DNA from: Verrucomicrobiota bacterium
Lineage (GTDB): Bacteria; Verrucomicrobiota; Verrucomicrobiia; Opitutales; Opitutaceae
Assembly: GCA_947471035.1 (NCBI GenBank)
Contig: CANIWJ010000017.1
Span: forward strand, 1-45,329
Length of the DNA stretch: 45,329 nucleotides
Direction: 5' to 3'
This document shows positions 2,677 to 37,706 of this stretch, piece after piece. Position 1 is the first letter of the stretch, and each line of letters starts with the position of its first letter. The translations under genes were made by a program, and so were the position numbers. Below the pieces are notes generated by a model. The model saw only the letters and a list, made by a program, of their open reading frames with translations, ran no database searches and was not told where the DNA came from.

Positions 2677-3903
2677 TCAGCGTGGTTCGGAGGTGAGGCG
2701 AATGCTGGGCAGTGAAAATTTATCATTACGTTTGATCACCCAATTTTCGGTCGCTCTTCCCATGGTAAGATCGCTTTTCGTCCAAGTCCCGTTGGCCAGT
2801 TTGAGACTTTGAATGATGTTGGTGGAGGGCTCGCGGTAGAAAGCCACCGCAAGGCAGTCCTTGCTTTGGGGGATAATGACGAGTGCGGCGCTGTGCAGCG
2901 CCGTGCGAATTAGCCTTGGTCCATTTTGCGCGGTTTTTCGCGTCGCCTTCGCGTTCGTCGTATTCTCGTGGCTATTGCACTCGGTAGACGTGAATTTGAA
3001 CGCCTCTGATTTTTTCAGGGCTCGCTCAAGCTCATCATACGACGTGGCAATCTCGGACCGCTCCAGCAGGGTTCGGACGGTAAGCTTTGTGACCTCGTCT
3101 GAGATTTCATCCTTGGCCAGCGACACGGCATACACCGTTTGGGTTTTCTGGGAGATGTTCTCGTATTTTACCTGGTAGGTTTTTCCCAGGAGGAGGACTT
3201 CGATGGATTTTTTGAAATCGTCATAACCGATGACCATGGTCTGACGCTTCGTCATACCTTTGAATTCGTCCCGCTCTTTGAACCTCAAAAGAAACGGACC
3301 GTTTGTGACCAAGTGGGTTTTGATGTAGTCGAGGGCTTCCTCGTCCGAACTCCAATTGAAGGCGAACACCTTAATGTTCAGGCCAAAGTTCACGAGCATC
3401 TGGGCGGCACTCTCCGTGCTCGATTTTTCTCCGAAGAGTTCCTTGAGATCCTCCTCGTCGAACTCGATGCCGTGGTAGAGCGCGATTTTCAGGGCCGGAC
3501 GTTGGGGTTCCCAATCGCCTCCGAGGTTTTCAGGTTTTTTGATTCGAAAGCTCCGTGGTAGCGATTTTTCCGCGGCGGGCTTTTCCGTGGTCGTGGTTCC
3601 CAGGGCGGACACGGTTTTGGCGCCGAACTCAGTTTGAATCGTGAACTGGTCCGCATTGCTGAACCGGGTGAGCGGCAGCGTGAACGTTTGCCCGTCCTCG
3701 CGGCGAAGCGTCACACTCGATCCCTCAAGTTTTAAGATTTCTGCACGCAGGGAGACGCCTTCATTGCTGGTATAGGTGCGAAACTCGGCTCGGGCGGTGC
3801 CGACGGTAATGAGGCCAAGAAGCGGGAGAAGGGTTCTGAGTTTCACCAGTTGAGGAGTTCGGGTTGAGATCGGATTTTGGGCCGACGCAAAGATACGCGA
3901 CAT
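2677..3903 (-). CDS. Exported SHD1 protein with C39-like domain
   Basis: The longest frame starts at an ATG (3903-3901) embedded in the palindromic operator 3893-3912. A GTG at 3846-3844 is an alternative that would give a textbook signal peptide (V-KLRTLLPLLGLITVGTARA). Residues 40-90 are an SHD1-like domain (FRTYTSNEGVSLRAEI ... LTRFSNADQFTI). The central region ('LVNFGLNIKVFAFNW ... GPFLLRFKERDEF ... QTMVIGYDD') resembles the layout of C39-like papain-fold peptidases, but the usual catalytic His before the GYD motif is Thr-Met and I find no catalytic Cys, so an inactive or binding fold is more likely. It heads the leftward SHD1 gene group and is divergent from the XRE regulator, 44 bp away. 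Confidence 0.7.
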   Translation of the reverse strand: MSRIFASAQNPISTRTPQLVKLRTLLPLLGLITVGTARAEFRTYTSNEGVSLRAEILKLEGSSVTLRREDGQTFTLPLTRFSNADQFTIQTEFGAKTVSALGTTTTEKPAAEKSLPRSFRIKKPENLGGDWEPQRPALKIALYHGIEFDEEDLKELFGEKSSTESAAQMLVNFGLNIKVFAFNWSSDEEALDYIKTHLVTNGPFLLRFKERDEFKGMTKRQTMVIGYDDFKKSIEVLLLGKTYQVKYENISQKTQTVYAVSLAKDEISDEVTKLTVRTLLERSEIATSYDELERALKKSEAFKFTSTECNSHENTTNAKATRKTAQNGPRLIRTALHSAALVIIPQSKDCLAVAFYREPSTNIIQSLKLANGTWTKSDLTMGRATENWVIKRNDKFSLPSIRLTSEPR

Positions 3904-3912
3904 GTCGCGTAT
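3893..3912. promoter_or_regulatory. Operator palindrome O1
   Basis: ATACGCGACATGTCGCGTAT is a perfect 20-bp palindrome covering the ATG at 3903-3901 of the leftward SHD1 gene. On the minus strand TAAATA (3915-3910) lies 6 nt before that A, a -10 position suited to a leaderless transcript. It shares the GCGACATGTCGC core with three other sites in this region and probably binds the XRE protein encoded at 3948-4202. Confidence 0.75.
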
Positions 3913-3942
3913 TTAGGGGGCTTGTTTCGGTTATTGCTTAGC

Positions 3943-3954
3943 GCGACATGTCGC
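3943..3954. promoter_or_regulatory. Operator palindrome O2
   Basis: GCGACATGTCGC is a perfect 12-bp palindrome centred on the ATG (3948) of the XRE gene itself. Its centre is 46 bp from that of O1, across the divergent promoter region. Binding here would block start of the regulator's own gene, so autoregulation is expected. Confidence 0.7.
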
Positions 3955-4202
3955 TTGCTCGAAAAAAGTATGTTCCCCTACGCCGAAATGATCGGAATTT
4001 GATCGGTAAAGCGGTGATGACGATTCGGACCAATCAAAAGCTAACCCAAGAAGATCTGGCCGGCCGGCTCGCCGCCGTGGGCTGGAATGTGTCCCGTGAC
4101 ACCGTGCAGCGGATCGAAAGCGGCCAGCGAGAGGTCACGGACATCGATCTTCGGTTTTTGGCGAAAGGGTTGCGTGTTCCCGTTGGCGAGTTTTTCCAGT
4201 AA
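3948..4202 (+). CDS. XRE-family transcriptional regulator, 84 aa
   Basis: A single-domain helix-turn-helix protein. The HTH_3 (Cro/C1-type) domain spans about residues 22-82 ('QKLTQEDLAGRLAAVGWNVSRDTVQRIESGQREVTDIDLRFLAKGL'), with the typical RIESG turn before helix 4 and no effector domain. Size and layout resemble controller proteins of restriction systems and phage-type repressors. The start codon is inside operator O2 and no Shine-Dalgarno sequence is visible upstream, which fits a leaderless mRNA. Divergent from the SHD1 operon and convergent with the lipoprotein gene. The repeated palindromes around it make it the likely regulator of both leftward groups and of itself. Confidence 0.85.
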   Translation: MSLARKKYVPLRRNDRNLIGKAVMTIRTNQKLTQEDLAGRLAAVGWNVSRDTVQRIESGQREVTDIDLRFLAKGLRVPVGEFFQ

Positions 4203-4224
4203 GGGCGGCGCCTAAGTAGCGCGT

Positions 4225-4518
4225 CTAGTAGGCGGCCTCCTGTATCAGGGCGTTCAACTTGGAACTCATTTCCTTGGCAACGACCGGGGAGAGTCGGTCA
4301 AACTCCGCTTGCGCCCGTTTCCCGTGTTGGGTGTCGGCGTAGTCTTGGGCTACCATCTGATAAACGCCCAGAGCTTCGGATCGACCCTCGGGGGTCTGAA
4401 GCGCCTCCTTTTGCTTGGCGCTAACGAACAGGGTCTCGGCTTCGCGGGACCTTGGGTCTTCCGCGCAGCCCTGAAGGAGCAAGGCGCACAGCGTGATAAC
4501 AACGGTTAGAGTCTTCAT
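4225..4518 (-). CDS. Small lipoprotein, 97 aa
   Basis: The signal peptide ends in a lipobox (LLLQGC, Cys18), so it should be a lipid-anchored exported protein. The remainder (about residues 25-95) is charged and helical with a TPR-like look (SREAETLFVSAKQKEAL ... YQMVAQDYADTQHGKRAQAEF). It is 9 bp downstream of the small membrane-protein gene 4528-4788 and must be cotranscribed with it. Function unknown. Confidence 0.7.
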   Translation of the reverse strand: MKTLTVVITLCALLLQGCAEDPRSREAETLFVSAKQKEALQTPEGRSEALGVYQMVAQDYADTQHGKRAQAEFDRLSPVVAKEMSSKLNALIQEAAY

Positions 4519-4527
4519 GGGTGAAAT

Positions 4528-4788
4528 TTAGCCGACGCGAACGCCCTTGTTGGCTGCGTCTCTCGGGCCCTTGCGAGCGAAACGGTAGATCAAGGCGCCC
4601 AGGAAATTCAGGAACAGGATGACCAAAATCCAAACGATCTTGTTGGTGGAGTCCGTCTCCTTGGTGGCTGCATCAATCAGCATCTGAATCCAGAAAATCA
4701 GTCCGAGCAGGCCGAGTAGGAGAAAAGCGATATTGAGGAAAAGTAGGGTCACGGAAGTAGCTGGTGGCATTAGCTCGATGCGCGACAT
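4528..4788 (-). CDS. Two-TM membrane protein, PLDc_N-like
   Basis: An 86-residue protein with two hydrophobic helices (about residues 14-36 and 50-68) separated by a short polar loop (DAATKETDSTNKI), ending in a basic tail. The 'FWIQMLIDAATKE...KIVWILVILFLNFLGALIYRFARK' pattern matches the PLDc_N / phospholipase D nuclease N-terminal domain, a small membrane domain that often stands alone and has no known enzymatic activity. The first ATG (4788-4786) lies inside palindrome O3; a second ATG at 4770-4768 (residue 7) is an alternative start preceded by GAGC. First gene of a two-gene leftward unit. Confidence 0.7.
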   Translation of the reverse strand: MSRIELMPPATSVTLLFLNIAFLLLGLLGLIFWIQMLIDAATKETDSTNKIVWILVILFLNFLGALIYRFARKGPRDAANKGVRVG

Positions 4789-4793
4789 GTCAC
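4782..4793. promoter_or_regulatory. Operator palindrome O3 (imperfect)
   Basis: GCGACATGTCAC keeps the GACATGTC core of the other operators but has one arm mutated. It covers the first ATG of the 86-residue membrane protein and pairs with O4, 47 bp away. Confidence 0.6.
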
Positions 4794-4820
4794 ATATTTT
4801 ACAGCTCAGGCACGTGTCAA
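4793..4820 (-). promoter_or_regulatory. Promoter between operators O3 and O4
   Basis: On the minus strand a consensus -35 TTGACA (4820-4815) is followed after 16 bp by AATATG (4798-4793) as -10; the alternative AAAATA (4800-4795) would leave only 14 bp. It reads leftward into the membrane-protein and lipoprotein genes and is framed by O4 upstream of the -35 and O3 at the transcription start. Confidence 0.5.
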
Positions 4821-4825
4821 GGAAT

Positions 4826-4843
4826 TGCGCGACATGTCGCGCA
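4826..4843. promoter_or_regulatory. Operator palindrome O4
   Basis: TGCGCGACATGTCGCGCA is a perfect 18-bp palindrome directly upstream of the TTGACA box of the leftward promoter. It has the same core as O1 and O2. Confidence 0.7.
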
Positions 4844-5021: not shown

Positions 5022-5345
5022 ATGGTGACTCTTACGAATGAAACCGATGTCCTTTCAGCTTTGGCTGCTGGCATTCGGGGTGAGCGCATTCGGCTGGGTT
5101 GGAGACAGGCAGACTTAGCGGAACGGTCGGGGGTGCCCTTGCGCACGCTTCGCAAGTTCGAGACCACCGGACAGATTGGCACCGCCGCTCTAGCCCGTCT
5201 GCTCGTTAGCCTTGGTATGGCGGACAGATTCCTGGAGGGGTGCAAACCGCCGCCGCCAGCCCCTAAGAGCATGGAAGAGTTTCTGGCCTCCAGTATACCG
5301 CCAAGCGTGCGGAAAAGGGTGAGGCTTAAGGCCAGGCAGGAATAA
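5022..5345 (+). CDS. hipB: HipB-type antitoxin, XRE family
   Basis: A 107-residue DNA-binding protein. The HTH domain spans about residues 12-68 ('LAAGIRGERIRLGWRQADLAERSGVPLRTLRKFETTGQIGTAALARLLVSLG'), followed by a Pro-rich linker and a basic tail. Its position six bases upstream of a HipA-like kinase gene (stop at 5345, next ATG at 5352) identifies it as the antitoxin and autorepressor of a HipBA-type toxin-antitoxin pair. AAAGG at 5013-5017 supports the start. It is longer than E. coli HipB (88 residues), mainly at the C-terminus. Confidence 0.85.
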   Translation: MVTLTNETDVLSALAAGIRGERIRLGWRQADLAERSGVPLRTLRKFETTGQIGTAALARLLVSLGMADRFLEGCKPPPPAPKSMEEFLASSIPPSVRKRVRLKARQE

Positions 5346-5351
5346 ACCGCC

Positions 5352-6692
5352 ATGTCTCTCAACGAACCAACTACGCTGAATCTCAGCTACCTGGGACGCC
5401 CCATGGCGACCTTGGCTCACAACGCCCGGGAGCAATCCTATGCACTACAGTTCACCGAGGAGTTTCTTAAAACCGGACACGATCTCTCTCCGGTGCATCT
5501 CCCTGTCGCCCGGGTGGGGGCAGGGCTGCAAGTTTTTCGTCCGGGTTCGACACCATTGCACGCGGGATTGCCGGGACTGATTGCCGATGCGCTACCGGAT
5601 GCGTGGGGTGAACGAATGCTCAAGCATGAGCTGCCGGAACTGCGAACCACGATGGGCAAACTCGCCGCATTGGGGCAGCGTGCGTCAGGTGCGATCTCCT
5701 TTGAGCCTGTGATTGGCCAAGGAGCAGACGAGGCGGTTGGTCGAGTCAGCCTCGCTGCCATTGCCCGGGAAGCGGACGCATTTAGGGCCGAGCCGGTGTC
5801 GCTCGACCGCAATGCCGTCAACCTCGCCCTGGCCCACGCCGGCGGGACCTTGGGCGGTGCCTTTCCCAAGCTCTCCGCCTTCCTGCCCAATACCACCGAG
5901 GGCACGACGCTTTCGCTGCATGAGCTGTTGGTCGGTGGTGCCACGCCGCCTGATCATCAGCCAGTGATCCTGAAGCTGGAGCGGCTCGGCGACGAGACGG
6001 AGGGTGCAGTCGAGTTCGCGTTTTGGCGCATGGCCAAGCGAGCCGGGCTGCGGGTACCGCCGGCTTGGTTGGTGGAGGACGAGGGGCGACGTCACTTTGC
6101 GACGGCACGTTTCGACCGAGTGAAAACCGATACTGGCGTGTGGCGCAGGCTCCATGTTCACAGCCTGAGCGGGATGCTCCACAAGCAAGCCGCCAACGGC
6201 GAAATCGGCTACGAGGAACTCATCCGCTTGGCGCGAGCCCTAGGTGGCGCGCCCGAGGCCAAGGAGGCGTTTCGCCGCATCCTTTTCAATCTGCTCGCCA
6301 CCAACCGCGACGACCACGGACGCAACCATGCCTTCCTCTACTTTGACCAACTTAAGACCTGGCAACTCAGTCCGGCCTACGACCTGAACCCGAATGTCTG
6401 CAACACGTTCATCGCGCTGAATTGGCTCGGTGATATGCGCCTGCCCCGGCGTTTTGACGATGTGCTCCGGCTGGCAGCCGTCGCCGCCTTGGACAAGCGC
6501 GAGGTGCGAGCGATGTTCGCCGAGATCGAAGCGGCGACGGTTGGCGCCTGGGAGCGGGAAGCGGTTGAAGCAGGCGTATCGGGTTATTCGATACGGGCGT
6601 GGGGTCATGAGATCCAGCAGCAAACCGCCGAGTTGCGGGCCGACTTTGAAGCTACTGGCCGCAGCCGGCGCGGGGCCAAGCCAGCCCTTTAA
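5352..6692 (+). CDS. hipA: HipA-type serine/threonine kinase toxin
   Basis: 446 residues, about the length of E. coli HipA. The N-terminal domain (about 1-110) contains 'GLPGLIADALPDAWGERML', and the kinase domain follows. Visible kinase features are GGTLGGAFPK (164-173) at the P-loop region, Lys208 in VILKLE, the catalytic motif N-R-D-D-H-G-R-N-H (318-326, Asp320 expected as base) and SPAYDLNP (340-347) in place of a DFG motif. Known HipA enzymes phosphorylate glutamyl-tRNA synthetase or related targets and stop growth; the target here is unknown. The P-loop differs from the usual SxPGGAQPK form. Part of its 3' end is repeated, diverged, at 8979-9059. Confidence 0.88.
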   Translation: MSLNEPTTLNLSYLGRPMATLAHNAREQSYALQFTEEFLKTGHDLSPVHLPVARVGAGLQVFRPGSTPLHAGLPGLIADALPDAWGERMLKHELPELRTTMGKLAALGQRASGAISFEPVIGQGADEAVGRVSLAAIAREADAFRAEPVSLDRNAVNLALAHAGGTLGGAFPKLSAFLPNTTEGTTLSLHELLVGGATPPDHQPVILKLERLGDETEGAVEFAFWRMAKRAGLRVPPAWLVEDEGRRHFATARFDRVKTDTGVWRRLHVHSLSGMLHKQAANGEIGYEELIRLARALGGAPEAKEAFRRILFNLLATNRDDHGRNHAFLYFDQLKTWQLSPAYDLNPNVCNTFIALNWLGDMRLPRRFDDVLRLAAVAALDKREVRAMFAEIEAATVGAWEREAVEAGVSGYSIRAWGHEIQQQTAELRADFEATGRSRRGAKPAL

Positions 6693-6818: not shown

Positions 6819-6855
6819 ACTGGCCAAGTGTGCCTTGTTATGCTTAATTCCCCAA

Positions 6856-8214
6856 ATGCTCCTTCAATTTTCTGTCTCTAATTATCGGGCATTTCGTGAC
6901 CTCCAGACCCTCAATCTGGCGGCCAGTAATTATGACAAGGCGCTCCCCGAAAGCTGTATCACCCCAAACCTTCCCGGCCTGAAAAACCGGCGCTGGGTTA
7001 AGGGAGCGGCCATTTACGGTGCCAACGCCAGTGGCAAGAGCACTCTGATCGAGGCCTTGGAATCCTTTGTCGGTTTCGTGCGTGAATCCGCCAAAACGAC
7101 CGACCCGCAAACGCCGATCCCCCAAATTGAGCCATTCGCCCTCGATCCTGCCGCTGCCGATGAGCCCACTGCCTTCGCCGTCACCTTCGTCAACGAGGGC
7201 GTGCGCTACGAATACCGCGTCGCAGCCACCAAGACGCTCGTCCGGCACGAATCCCTGCGCGCTTTTCCACTTGGCAAAGAGCAGGTCTGGTTCGTTCGCG
7301 AATGGTCGCAGGAAGCTGCGGCACACATCTTTTCCCCTGACAGTCCCAAGGGACTACCGCGCGACCGGGCGGTCGAAAAGCGAACGCTGCCCAACATGCT
7401 CTACCTCTCAAAGGCCATCGCGGAAAACCGCAAGGAGCTAGAGCCGGTGTTCCGTTGGCTGGTGAATCGGTTGGTTTTTCTCGATCTGCGTATCCCGTTT
7501 CCGTCAGTCGCCCTTTATCAGGACACACTACGCTCCCTCGCGCAGGACGGCTCTCCAAATCGCGACAAGATCCTGCGCCTGCTCCGCAACGCCGACCTAG
7601 GTATCCGCGGCGCTCGGCAAGTGGACAACGTAATGCCGGCCGAAGCGGATGCTTTTTTTAAGTCGATGAACGATCACCTGCCAGAAGAGGCTAAGGGCGT
7701 GTTCGGCACTCACCTTTGGGGCGTCGAGCCCGAGCTGCTCCACGCTGCGCCCGGAGGCCAGAACCTTCCCTTGCCTTGGGTCCGCGAATCTGCCGGCACG
7801 CACCGACTCTTTGCACTGATTGGCCCGCTGCTGGAGCATCTACAAGCTGGACGCACGCTCTGCGTGGACGAGTTGGAGGCCAGCATGCATCCCCTGATGG
7901 TGCGTGAGTTGTTACGCTTGTTTTTTAGCGACCAGGAGAACCCGTCACGGGCTCAGATCATTTTCACCACCCACAACCCGCTTCTGCTCGATCCGACGCT
8001 CATCCGTCGCGATCAGGTCTGGTTCACCGATAAAGACGACGAGGGTCGCGCCCACTTGTATCCACTTACTGATTACGAGCCGCGTGTAGGCGAATCTCTG
8101 GTGCGGGGCTACCTCGCTGGTCGTTACGGTGCCGTGCCCTTCGTGCCTGAGGGACTTCTCGGCACTTTCCCCGCCGTCCAGATTCTGCCCGCCAAGCCAG
8201 AGGTGAATGCATGA
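6856..8214 (+). CDS. AAA ATPase, RloA/AbiLi-like defence component
   Basis: An OLD/SMC-like ATPase of 452 residues. I use the ATG at 6856 (MLLQFSVSNYRAF, the typical family N-terminus) rather than the upstream TTG at 6835. Walker A is GANASGKST (about 55-63); Walker B with following acidic residue is CVDELEASMHP (about 336-346); the FTTHNP motif near 371 is the H-loop/switch seen in ATPases of abortive-infection and retron systems. It overlaps the next gene by ATGA, so the two are translationally coupled. ATPase plus RloB pairs are the composition of AbiL-type phage defence: the ATPase is thought to sense infection and release the partner effector. Confidence 0.85.
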   Translation: MLLQFSVSNYRAFRDLQTLNLAASNYDKALPESCITPNLPGLKNRRWVKGAAIYGANASGKSTLIEALESFVGFVRESAKTTDPQTPIPQIEPFALDPAAADEPTAFAVTFVNEGVRYEYRVAATKTLVRHESLRAFPLGKEQVWFVREWSQEAAAHIFSPDSPKGLPRDRAVEKRTLPNMLYLSKAIAENRKELEPVFRWLVNRLVFLDLRIPFPSVALYQDTLRSLAQDGSPNRDKILRLLRNADLGIRGARQVDNVMPAEADAFFKSMNDHLPEEAKGVFGTHLWGVEPELLHAAPGGQNLPLPWVRESAGTHRLFALIGPLLEHLQAGRTLCVDELEASMHPLMVRELLRLFFSDQENPSRAQIIFTTHNPLLLDPTLIRRDQVWFTDKDDEGRAHLYPLTDYEPRVGESLVRGYLAGRYGAVPFVPEGLLGTFPAVQILPAKPEVNA

Positions 8215-8954
8215 GCAGCGGCGCGGCCAAACCGTGGTGGCAGGAGGCGAAGGAGCTGAGCCTGGCTCGCAAAGTGGCCATGCCCTCACGCGCGGCCCAC
8301 GCCAAGCCCGGCGACGCCTTTCTCATCGTGACCGAGGGTGAAGTCACCGAACCCGTTTACTTCGAACTTCTGCGTGAATCGCTCCAACTCGCCACCGTCA
8401 CCGTGAAAATCCAGCCGGGCCGCGCCAGCGATCCACGGCATGTCATCAATTCCGCCGCCGACGAGGTCACCGCCTTGGCTAGGCGCGTGAAGAAAAAGCA
8501 AACCGCGATCAACGAGGTCGAGAAATACGACCACGTCTGGGCCGTAATCGACACAGATGTCGCGGTGCGTAATGGCATCTGGCCCGACGTGCAGCAGCTC
8601 GCAAAGGCACGAGGCGTGCGGCTCGCGCATTCCACGCCATGCTTCGAGTTCTGGCTTTTGCTCCACATCCAAGGCTACACAACACGGGCCGATTTGCTCA
8701 CTGGCACGCTCGCCAAAGATGCAGTCGAAAAGGCCCTCGGCAAAGAATACTCCACCAACGCTGAGATCGCTAAAAAAGTTATCCCGACGTTCCTAGCCAA
8801 GTGGCCCGAGGCGTTTCATCACGCGCGGCGTGTGCGCGAGCATCACCTAGCGGCCAACACTAAGCCTCCCGGGAATCCCTCGACGGAGGTCGATCACTTG
8901 GTCTGCGCCCTCAACGATGCGGCGACGGAGCACTATCGTAAGGTCAAACTCTGA
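8211..8954 (+). CDS. RloB-family protein, AbiLii-like effector
   Basis: 247 residues. Typical RloB pattern: IVTEGEVTEPVYFELL at about 39-54, with glutamates 42, 44 and 47; VWAVIDTDV at 109-117, with Asp114 and Asp116; and STPCFEFWLLLH at 141-152. The E...DxD arrangement resembles the metal site of Toprim nucleases, so a nuclease role is inferred, not shown. The start codon overlaps the stop of the ATPase gene (ATGA). Together they resemble the lactococcal AbiLi/AbiLii pair. Confidence 0.85.
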   Translation: MSSGAAKPWWQEAKELSLARKVAMPSRAAHAKPGDAFLIVTEGEVTEPVYFELLRESLQLATVTVKIQPGRASDPRHVINSAADEVTALARRVKKKQTAINEVEKYDHVWAVIDTDVAVRNGIWPDVQQLAKARGVRLAHSTPCFEFWLLLHIQGYTTRADLLTGTLAKDAVEKALGKEYSTNAEIAKKVIPTFLAKWPEAFHHARRVREHHLAANTKPPGNPSTEVDHLVCALNDAATEHYRKVKL

Positions 8955-37427: not shown

Positions 37428-37706
37428 TCACACCTTGGCGCCGTTGTCGCACTTGTAGTGCACCCGCCGCCGCAGCTCGGCCAGCGTGCGCTGCGCCGCG
37501 CGTTGCGCCGCTTCGGTATCGGGCGAACCGGGGATGATGCTGAGCGTGCCATTGTCCGAACGAGCCGGGAGGTTTTCGTCCTGAATCATCCCGCCGATCA
37601 AAAGCAGTTGCTCCGCCCAAGGGCTGAGTCGCGTGTTGGGAAAACCCGTTTGCTGGGCCAGCCAAAGAAAAAACTTGGCCGGAGGAATATTTGCGTCGCC
37701 TGACAT
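37428..37706 (-). CDS. Hypothetical protein, 92 aa
   Basis: I do not recognise a family. No signal peptide or membrane segment. The sequence has a helical start (PPAKFFLWLAQQTGF), a central 'SPWAEQLLLIGGMI', and ends in RTLAELRRRVHYKCDNGAKV. 60 bp upstream of the carboxypeptidase start on the same strand, and divergent from msrB with 64 bp between. The regular codon use and operon position support a real gene. Confidence 0.55.
   Translation of the reverse strand: MSGDANIPPAKFFLWLAQQTGFPNTRLSPWAEQLLLIGGMIQDENLPARSDNGTLSIIPGSPDTEAAQRAAQRTLAELRRRVHYKCDNGAKV

Follow-up and report, generated by a model that had tools for sequence, protein, structure and literature searches.

A predicted XRE autoregulator and its putative palindromic operators at two mirror-image promoters in a Verrucomicrobiota bacterium

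The window analysed here is a whole stretch of 45,329 nucleotides from a Verrucomicrobiota bacterium of the Opitutaceae (contig CANIWJ010000017.1 of assembly GCA_947471035.1). Its region 3893-4843 holds a cassette, consisting of the gene for an 84-residue regulator of the XRE family and of a convergent two-gene unit encoding a PLDc_N membrane protein and a lipoprotein-like protein, with two sites sharing the core GACATGTC at each of the two promoters. The regulator is proposed, with a probability of about 0.75, to be an autoregulator that binds these palindromes and co-controls the convergent membrane-protein unit, presumably by activation from the distal and repression from the proximal sites. 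The features of the cassette and of its divergent neighbour are the following:

2677..3846, minus strand: divergent exported protein, with a signal peptide and an SHD1-like N-terminus by eye; candidate further target of the distal operator
3893..3912: putative distal operator of the regulator, ATACGCGACATGTCGCGTAT, a 20-bp perfect palindrome centred about 45 bp 5' of the start codon
3932..3937, plus strand: presumed -10 of the regulator, TATTGC, placed by eye 30-35 bp past the distal centre
3943..3954: putative proximal operator of the regulator, a 12-bp perfect palindrome enclosing its ATG, 46 bp from the distal centre
3948..4202, plus strand: XRE (HTH_3) regulator, 84 aa; Pfam HTH_3, 6e-9
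4225..4518, minus strand: small lipoprotein-like open reading frame (ORF), 97 aa, with an LLLQGC lipobox by eye; second gene of the convergent unit
4528..4788, minus strand: PLDc_N membrane protein, 86 aa; first gene of the convergent unit; Pfam PLDc_N, 1.6e-9
4782..4793: putative proximal operator of the convergent unit, GCGACATGTCAC, palindromic across the 8-bp core only
4826..4843: putative distal operator of the convergent unit, TGCGCGACATGTCGCGCA, an 18-bp perfect palindrome, 47 bp from the proximal centre

The four sites lie where a sequence-only reading of the window had placed them, with their GACATGTC cores starting at 3899, 3945, 4784 and 4831, and both the three perfect palindromes described in that reading (20, 12 and 18 bp) and its two nearly equally spaced pairs (centres 46 bp apart on the regulator side and 47 bp apart at the convergent unit) were borne out. 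The cassette is nearly mirror-symmetrical: the regulator and its putative target unit converge, each promoter has a strong outer and a weaker inner site, and an ATG lies in the centre of the inner site at both. At the convergent unit this is the first ATG of the PLDc_N gene, an in-frame ATG at about 4770 being a possible alternative. Three exact copies of the 12-mer GCGACATGTCGC are present in the window, with no further exact match in the 3.64-Mb, 232-contig assembly (92% complete, 6.6% contamination), and a 12-bp palindrome in three copies was found in none of 300 Markov-1 random windows with the same dinucleotide make-up, in which the maximum was two. Apart from the two distal sites, the 45-kb window contains no perfect palindrome of 16 bp or longer. 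A fifth, solitary GACATGTC is located at 37702, the chance expectation for the window being 0.42.

The regulator is a member of HTH_3 (36.3 bits, with a curated cut-off of 23), it has no paralogues in its own genome, and its start at 3948 is backed by the aligned starts of its homologues. Its AlphaFold2 model (mean pLDDT 89) has a small single-domain XRE fold like that of C.AhdI and C.Esp1396I. A profile search against solved structures placed C.BclI (E 4e-5) and C.Esp1396I nearest, and Foldseek gave C.BclI, C.AhdI and C.Esp1396I as the nearest folds (TMq 0.65-0.70); as these are controller proteins, the likeness to restriction-system controllers suggested earlier holds for both profile and fold. 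In padloc, the protein matched HTH_VI (4.5e-7) and RmrA (4.6e-5), followed by Control_protein (8.7e-5). Viral contigs contained no close relatives of the regulator, only remote ones with at most 52% over short stretches.

The regulator had been regarded as the obvious ligand of the palindromes, and its homologues support this at the level of sequence. A profile search of 252 genomes of the family yielded at least five close members (E <1e-30, the next match being 5e-22), namely the regulator itself and those of four genomes referred to as G066, G199, G135 and G203; this is a lower bound, because in many genomes only part of the first-look candidates was scored. In all five, a palindromic candidate operator lies upstream of the regulator's own gene, its centre preceding the hand-corrected start codon by 45-54 bp. 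It reads GGGCGACATGTCGCCC in G066 and G135 and CGGGGACATGTCCCCG in G199, while that of G203, GGGCGATATGTCGCCC, has one core mismatch. A check for homologues devoid of the palindrome found none among the close members; the GAYATGTC palindrome was absent from all 32 more distant relatives (-110..+40 of the estimated start), which differ in their recognition helix and many of which have a different palindrome. Among the matches listed, the close relatives in public genomes are CAIMFY010000066.1 (Opitutae), PLXR01000023.1 (Opitutaceae) and JAUWBD010000223.1 (Verrucomicrobiota), which match contigs of G066, G199 and G135 in length, respectively. Most of the remaining genes around the regulator change from one locus to the next, G066 having a serine recombinase there and G199 a pro-kumamolisin-type peptidase, so that the site common to all is most readily assigned to the regulator gene itself.

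It is the distal site that is conserved; the inner site is not. A second site at offset 46 was found in G066 (13 of 16 positions, with none of 2000 random sequences as good), and the idea of a second site conserved in all homologues was dropped, as it recurs in one of the four other loci. Similarly, the paired arrangement and the second target unit pointed out by the sequence-only reading are present in this genome but find no support as conserved features. The search for GACATGTC-N26-56-GACATGTC pairs that it had proposed returned four of the 252 genomes; the pairs in G128, G012 and G135:C125 do not lie at a close member of the regulator.

Three of the close-member loci deserve a separate mention for their surroundings. 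The G066 regulator (L063, G066:C66, 2749-8606) is found in a mobile-looking region with a large serine recombinase and a RepB-like partition protein, which also contains a second small XRE-like ORF and, some 1.3 kb away from the regulator, a gene for an Mrr-type endonuclease. The divergent neighbours in G203 (L124, 3939-5129) and G135 (L065, 6574-7011) encode, by eye, an alike exported protein with no Pfam match.

Inspection of the promoters by eye revealed no TTGACA at the -35 position of the regulator promoter. Hexamers resembling a -10 box were located, also by eye, 30-35 bp from the distal centre in the window (TATTGC), G066 (TATAGT) and G203 (TAGGCT), 28-33 bp from it in G199 (GATAGT) and G135 (GGCAGT), and 34-39 bp from it at the convergent unit (TAAAAT), where a TTGACA is found between the two sites. 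With these positions, the distal site would fall near -42 and the leaders would measure 0-13 nt, the messages of both promoters being probably leaderless or very short-leadered. A site near -42 is the position from which lambda CI activates PRM. According to the mechanism proposed, the 84-residue protein, presumably as a dimer, would bind the palindromes centred on GACATGTC and control both the promoter of its own gene and the promoter of the convergent PLDc_N/lipoprotein unit, where the two-site layout recurs in mirror image. The distal site, which is the most symmetrical one, would be positioned at about -42, with no -35 box recognisable in the promoter, and would aid RNA polymerase in a way likened to that of controller proteins or lambda PRM; the proximal site, which is weaker and overlaps the start codon, would shut the promoter or block elongation when the protein reaches a high level.

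The recognition of its own palindrome may extend beyond the close members. Among 37 non-redundant relatives (15 of 52 loci were dropped as duplicates), four recognition-helix classes were distinguished, with 5 loci in class A, 9 each in classes B, C and D, and 5 others, and palindrome patterns were scored within -110..+40 of the estimated start. All five class A loci contain GAYATGTC; CTCC-N5-7-GGAG is present in 6/9 of class B (SRGTLAKIE), ATYC-N7-GRAT in 8/9 of class C (QSQIAKIE), and a GTGA..CCAC type in 5/9 of class D (DRSAIARIE). In class B, the site of L031 is found 20 bp past the estimated start and not before it. None of the four patterns appears in another class or in the five others, and it is only this absence of cross-matches that serves as a control, as the patterns were derived from the same loci. 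A first class C pattern with a gap of 3-6 matched 0/9 and the gap-7 pattern was fitted afterwards, while TTCC-N5-7-GGAA was discarded as class-specific (2/9 in B, 1/9 in C and 1/9 in D). Within the close members, the recognition helix of G199 has SED in place of the SRD of the other four, and its operator is GGGACATGTCCC instead of GCGACATGTCGC, still perfectly symmetrical; this is a single event.

In a held-out set of 19 loci (3 of 22 having been dropped as duplicates), a perfect inverted repeat with 8-bp arms was found around the gene start in five, compared with 12 of 327 other stretches taken from these loci (p 0.0012), and shuffles predicted 0.26 against the five observed. The class D pattern was present in two of the four held-out class D loci, and the 15 unclassed loci gave one D-pattern match (L160, DRSAISRIE) and one B-pattern match, in its TTCC form (L155). 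On these comparisons of sequence, self-recognition looks general in this XRE family, and the four helix classes, each with its own palindrome, suggest a helix-to-palindrome code for it. Further helix classes with palindromes of their own have also been noticed (L158, L165, L104, L149, L164), in which SRAGLSKIE is accompanied by GGGGGAATCCCCC-like sites, and SRDIVARIE, GRDIVARIE and SRDIIARIE by GTGTG..CACAC-like sites.

A number of results weigh against an autoregulator that co-controls the convergent unit through these palindromes, several of them concerning the specificity of the motif. Exact copies of GCGACATGTCGC occur in 49 of 200 sampled family genomes, mostly in one or two copies (26 for the reversed control), and 45 of these 49 genomes have no close regulator, the four with one being the genome studied here, G066, G135 and G199; in G199, moreover, the exact copy is not at the regulator. 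Two exact copies away from the regulator are found inside an ORF (G066:C63) and past the 3' end of an ORF (G135:C115). Places with one mismatch number 14 in the own genome and 8 for the reversed control, which is an imperfect control for these counts, taken irrespective of gene position; the corresponding figures are 37 and 6 in G135, 26 and 9 in G066, 18 and 7 in G199, and 9 and 2 in G203, and some of those in the own genome may be additional weak sites. Some 8-bp palindrome occurs at least four times within 951 bp in 54 of the 300 random windows, so that taken by itself the 8-bp core carries little weight and significance is no longer claimed from it; the earlier statement that chance is very unlikely stands for the 12-bp palindrome but not for this core. 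Two side observations are added here: TGCGACATGTCGCA lies directly 5' of the gene for a tyrosine integrase whose N-terminal domain is Phage_int_SAM_4 (L067, G199:C101, 6999-8052), and a 24-bp palindrome, TATGTCGCGACATGTCGCGACATA, lies between ORFs among small genes at 5109-5132 of L070 (G053:C207).

Other unfavourable points come from the protein, the promoters and the target. The best Foldseek E value was 1.7e-3, short of 0.001; G199, G135 and G203 have no recognisable proximal site (p 0.52-0.76); a consensus scan found no sigma-70-type promoter; and the -10-like hexamers, having been chosen by eye, are of uneven quality, some of them poor. Regarding the family-wide pattern, an individually unusual palindrome (shuffle p <= 0.05) is present in only 10 of the 37 loci, and the held-out set has no members of classes A, B or C, whose patterns thus lack an independent check there. 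The PLDc_N/lipoprotein unit and the operator pair belonging to it have been seen in this genome only, and none of the four other regulator carriers has a PLDc_N relative at E 1e-6. For this reason, conserved target genes are not claimed, and the target would be either a local acquisition or a unit for which the regulator was recruited.

These results leave room for alternative explanations, the most serious of which affects the mode of action and not the binding. The protein could occupy all four sites solely as a repressor, with dimers flanking the promoter and jointly blocking the polymerase, a possibility that falls somewhat short of an even chance. Small XRE autorepressors are common, and the TTGACA between the sites of the convergent unit suggests a promoter that needs no activator; by eye, however, the regulator promoter and those of G066, G199, G135 and G203 have no TTGACA-like -35 and carry the palindrome just upstream, and what has been conserved is the distal and not the proximal site. 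Autoregulation could also be real and the convergent unit no true target, its pair of sites being a leftover or a by-product. In agreement with this, the four other carriers have different neighbours and lack a relative (E 1e-6) of the unit's first gene, but the 18-bp perfect palindrome, the near-equal spacing of 47 bp, the ATG equally placed in the proximal site and the absence of any other exact 12-mer in the genome make it unlikely.

It is less probable still that a different transcription factor acts on both promoters through the palindromes. The small HipB-like XRE protein encoded nearby (5022-5345) would be a candidate, and the 12-mer is also found in genomes without a close regulator, but the distance between site and regulator is nearly constant in five genomes whose other neighbours are mostly different (G135 and G203 seem to share one). 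The reading of the palindromes as recombination or other mobile-element sites is very improbable: in G066 the regulator adjoins the large serine recombinase, and in G199 a GCGACATGTCGC copy elsewhere lies just before an integrase gene, but ORF listings of the window, G199:C9, G135 and G203, inspected by eye, show neither a recombinase nor an integrase next to the sites, and the sites keep an almost fixed position with respect to the regulator's start codon. With these alternatives weighed, autoregulation with co-control of the convergent unit is the preferred reading. The parts of it that sequence comparison backs are that protein and site go together, that the distal site keeps a nearly fixed distance from the regulator's start codon and that the exact 12-mers of this genome are confined to the two promoters. 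The cassette is very probably an autoregulatory regulator-operator system of a known kind, whose mirrored layout is unusual and whose footprint is conserved.

The known kind to which it is closest is that of the controller (C) proteins of restriction systems, which, according to PMC4824078, activate at low level and repress at high level via two operators, have leaderless transcripts and, in Esp1396I, possess a second C-box before the methyltransferase gene. Like C.AhdI, C.BclI, C.Esp1396I and C.Csp231I, the regulator is a small stand-alone XRE protein with putative palindromic operators at its own gene and two sites per promoter; the extra sites before a second gene resemble those of Esp1396I, and the very short leader predicted here would match leaderless C transcripts (PMC4824078). 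The differences lie in the operator itself (GACATGTC here, GACT-tat-AGTC and CTAAG-N5-CTTAG for the C-boxes quoted in that text), in the centre spacing of 46-47 bp, in the greater length of the turn joining helix 2 to helix 3, and in the lack of a restriction enzyme or methyltransferase match among the window proteins scanned. No such match was obtained for the regulator and eight neighbours in Pfam, nor in padloc and NCBIfam for the regulator and an overlapping set of eight (ten different neighbours altogether), the remainder of the window having been checked by reading ORF translations only. The putative targets are, as noted earlier, exported and membrane proteins rather than restriction enzymes, and the regulator is not counted among the restriction controllers because the link to restriction or modification genes is missing among the neighbours scanned.

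Two further systems offer partial parallels. PMC6237814 describes a C protein that attaches to the beginning of its own reading frame and serves as an elongation roadblock; as in C.Kpn2I and related XRE proteins, there is a candidate site at the very start of the regulator's reading frame here, and, as in that group, the relatives are not tied to restriction systems (PMC6237814). Unlike in C.Kpn2I, the conserved site is the upstream, distal one, and the start-codon site is recognisable in two of the five loci only. With the lambda-type XRE autoregulators (CI at PRM) the cassette shares the operator palindromes of a helix-turn-helix protein, but the 84-residue protein has no C-terminal dimerisation domain, and no phage genes were noticed near the cassette.

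Tentatively, and with more doubt than confidence, the cassette might be regarded as a restriction-free version of a controller system, in which a C-protein-like switch boosts and then blocks the synthesis of the regulator and of the membrane-protein pair through the two mirror-image promoters. If so, it would combine a strong operator at about -42 with a weak operator holding the start codon of a nearly leaderless message, it would represent a family whose recognition helix can be matched to the palindrome of its own gene, and it would be a case of controller-type switching applied to membrane proteins instead of restriction enzymes. A literature search found no paper on pairs of helix-turn-helix regulators and binding sites in Opitutaceae, for which the cassette provides a concrete predicted regulator-operator pair.

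As for the remaining genes, the 97-aa lipoprotein-like ORF has no match in Pfam, padloc or NCBIfam, and the divergent exported protein has none in Pfam. The latter ORF is listed from 3903, within the palindrome, but by eye a start at the GTG of position 3846, which opens a stretch resembling a signal peptide, is likelier. Relatives of the PLDc_N protein were found in 55 of the 252 family genomes (E 1e-6), and the own genome encodes a second one with 44% identity (G000:C92:5086-5280). Downstream of the cassette, where no exact GACATGTC is found at either of the two gene pairs present, a HipB/HipA-like pair adjoins at 5022-6692 (the HipB-like small XRE protein mentioned above being its first member) and is followed at 6835-8954 by an AAA ATPase and an RloB-type protein, matching AbiLi (9e-85) and AbiLii (1e-21) in padloc. 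Together, the HipBA-like and AbiLi/AbiLii-like pairs form a small defence cluster beside the regulator cassette.

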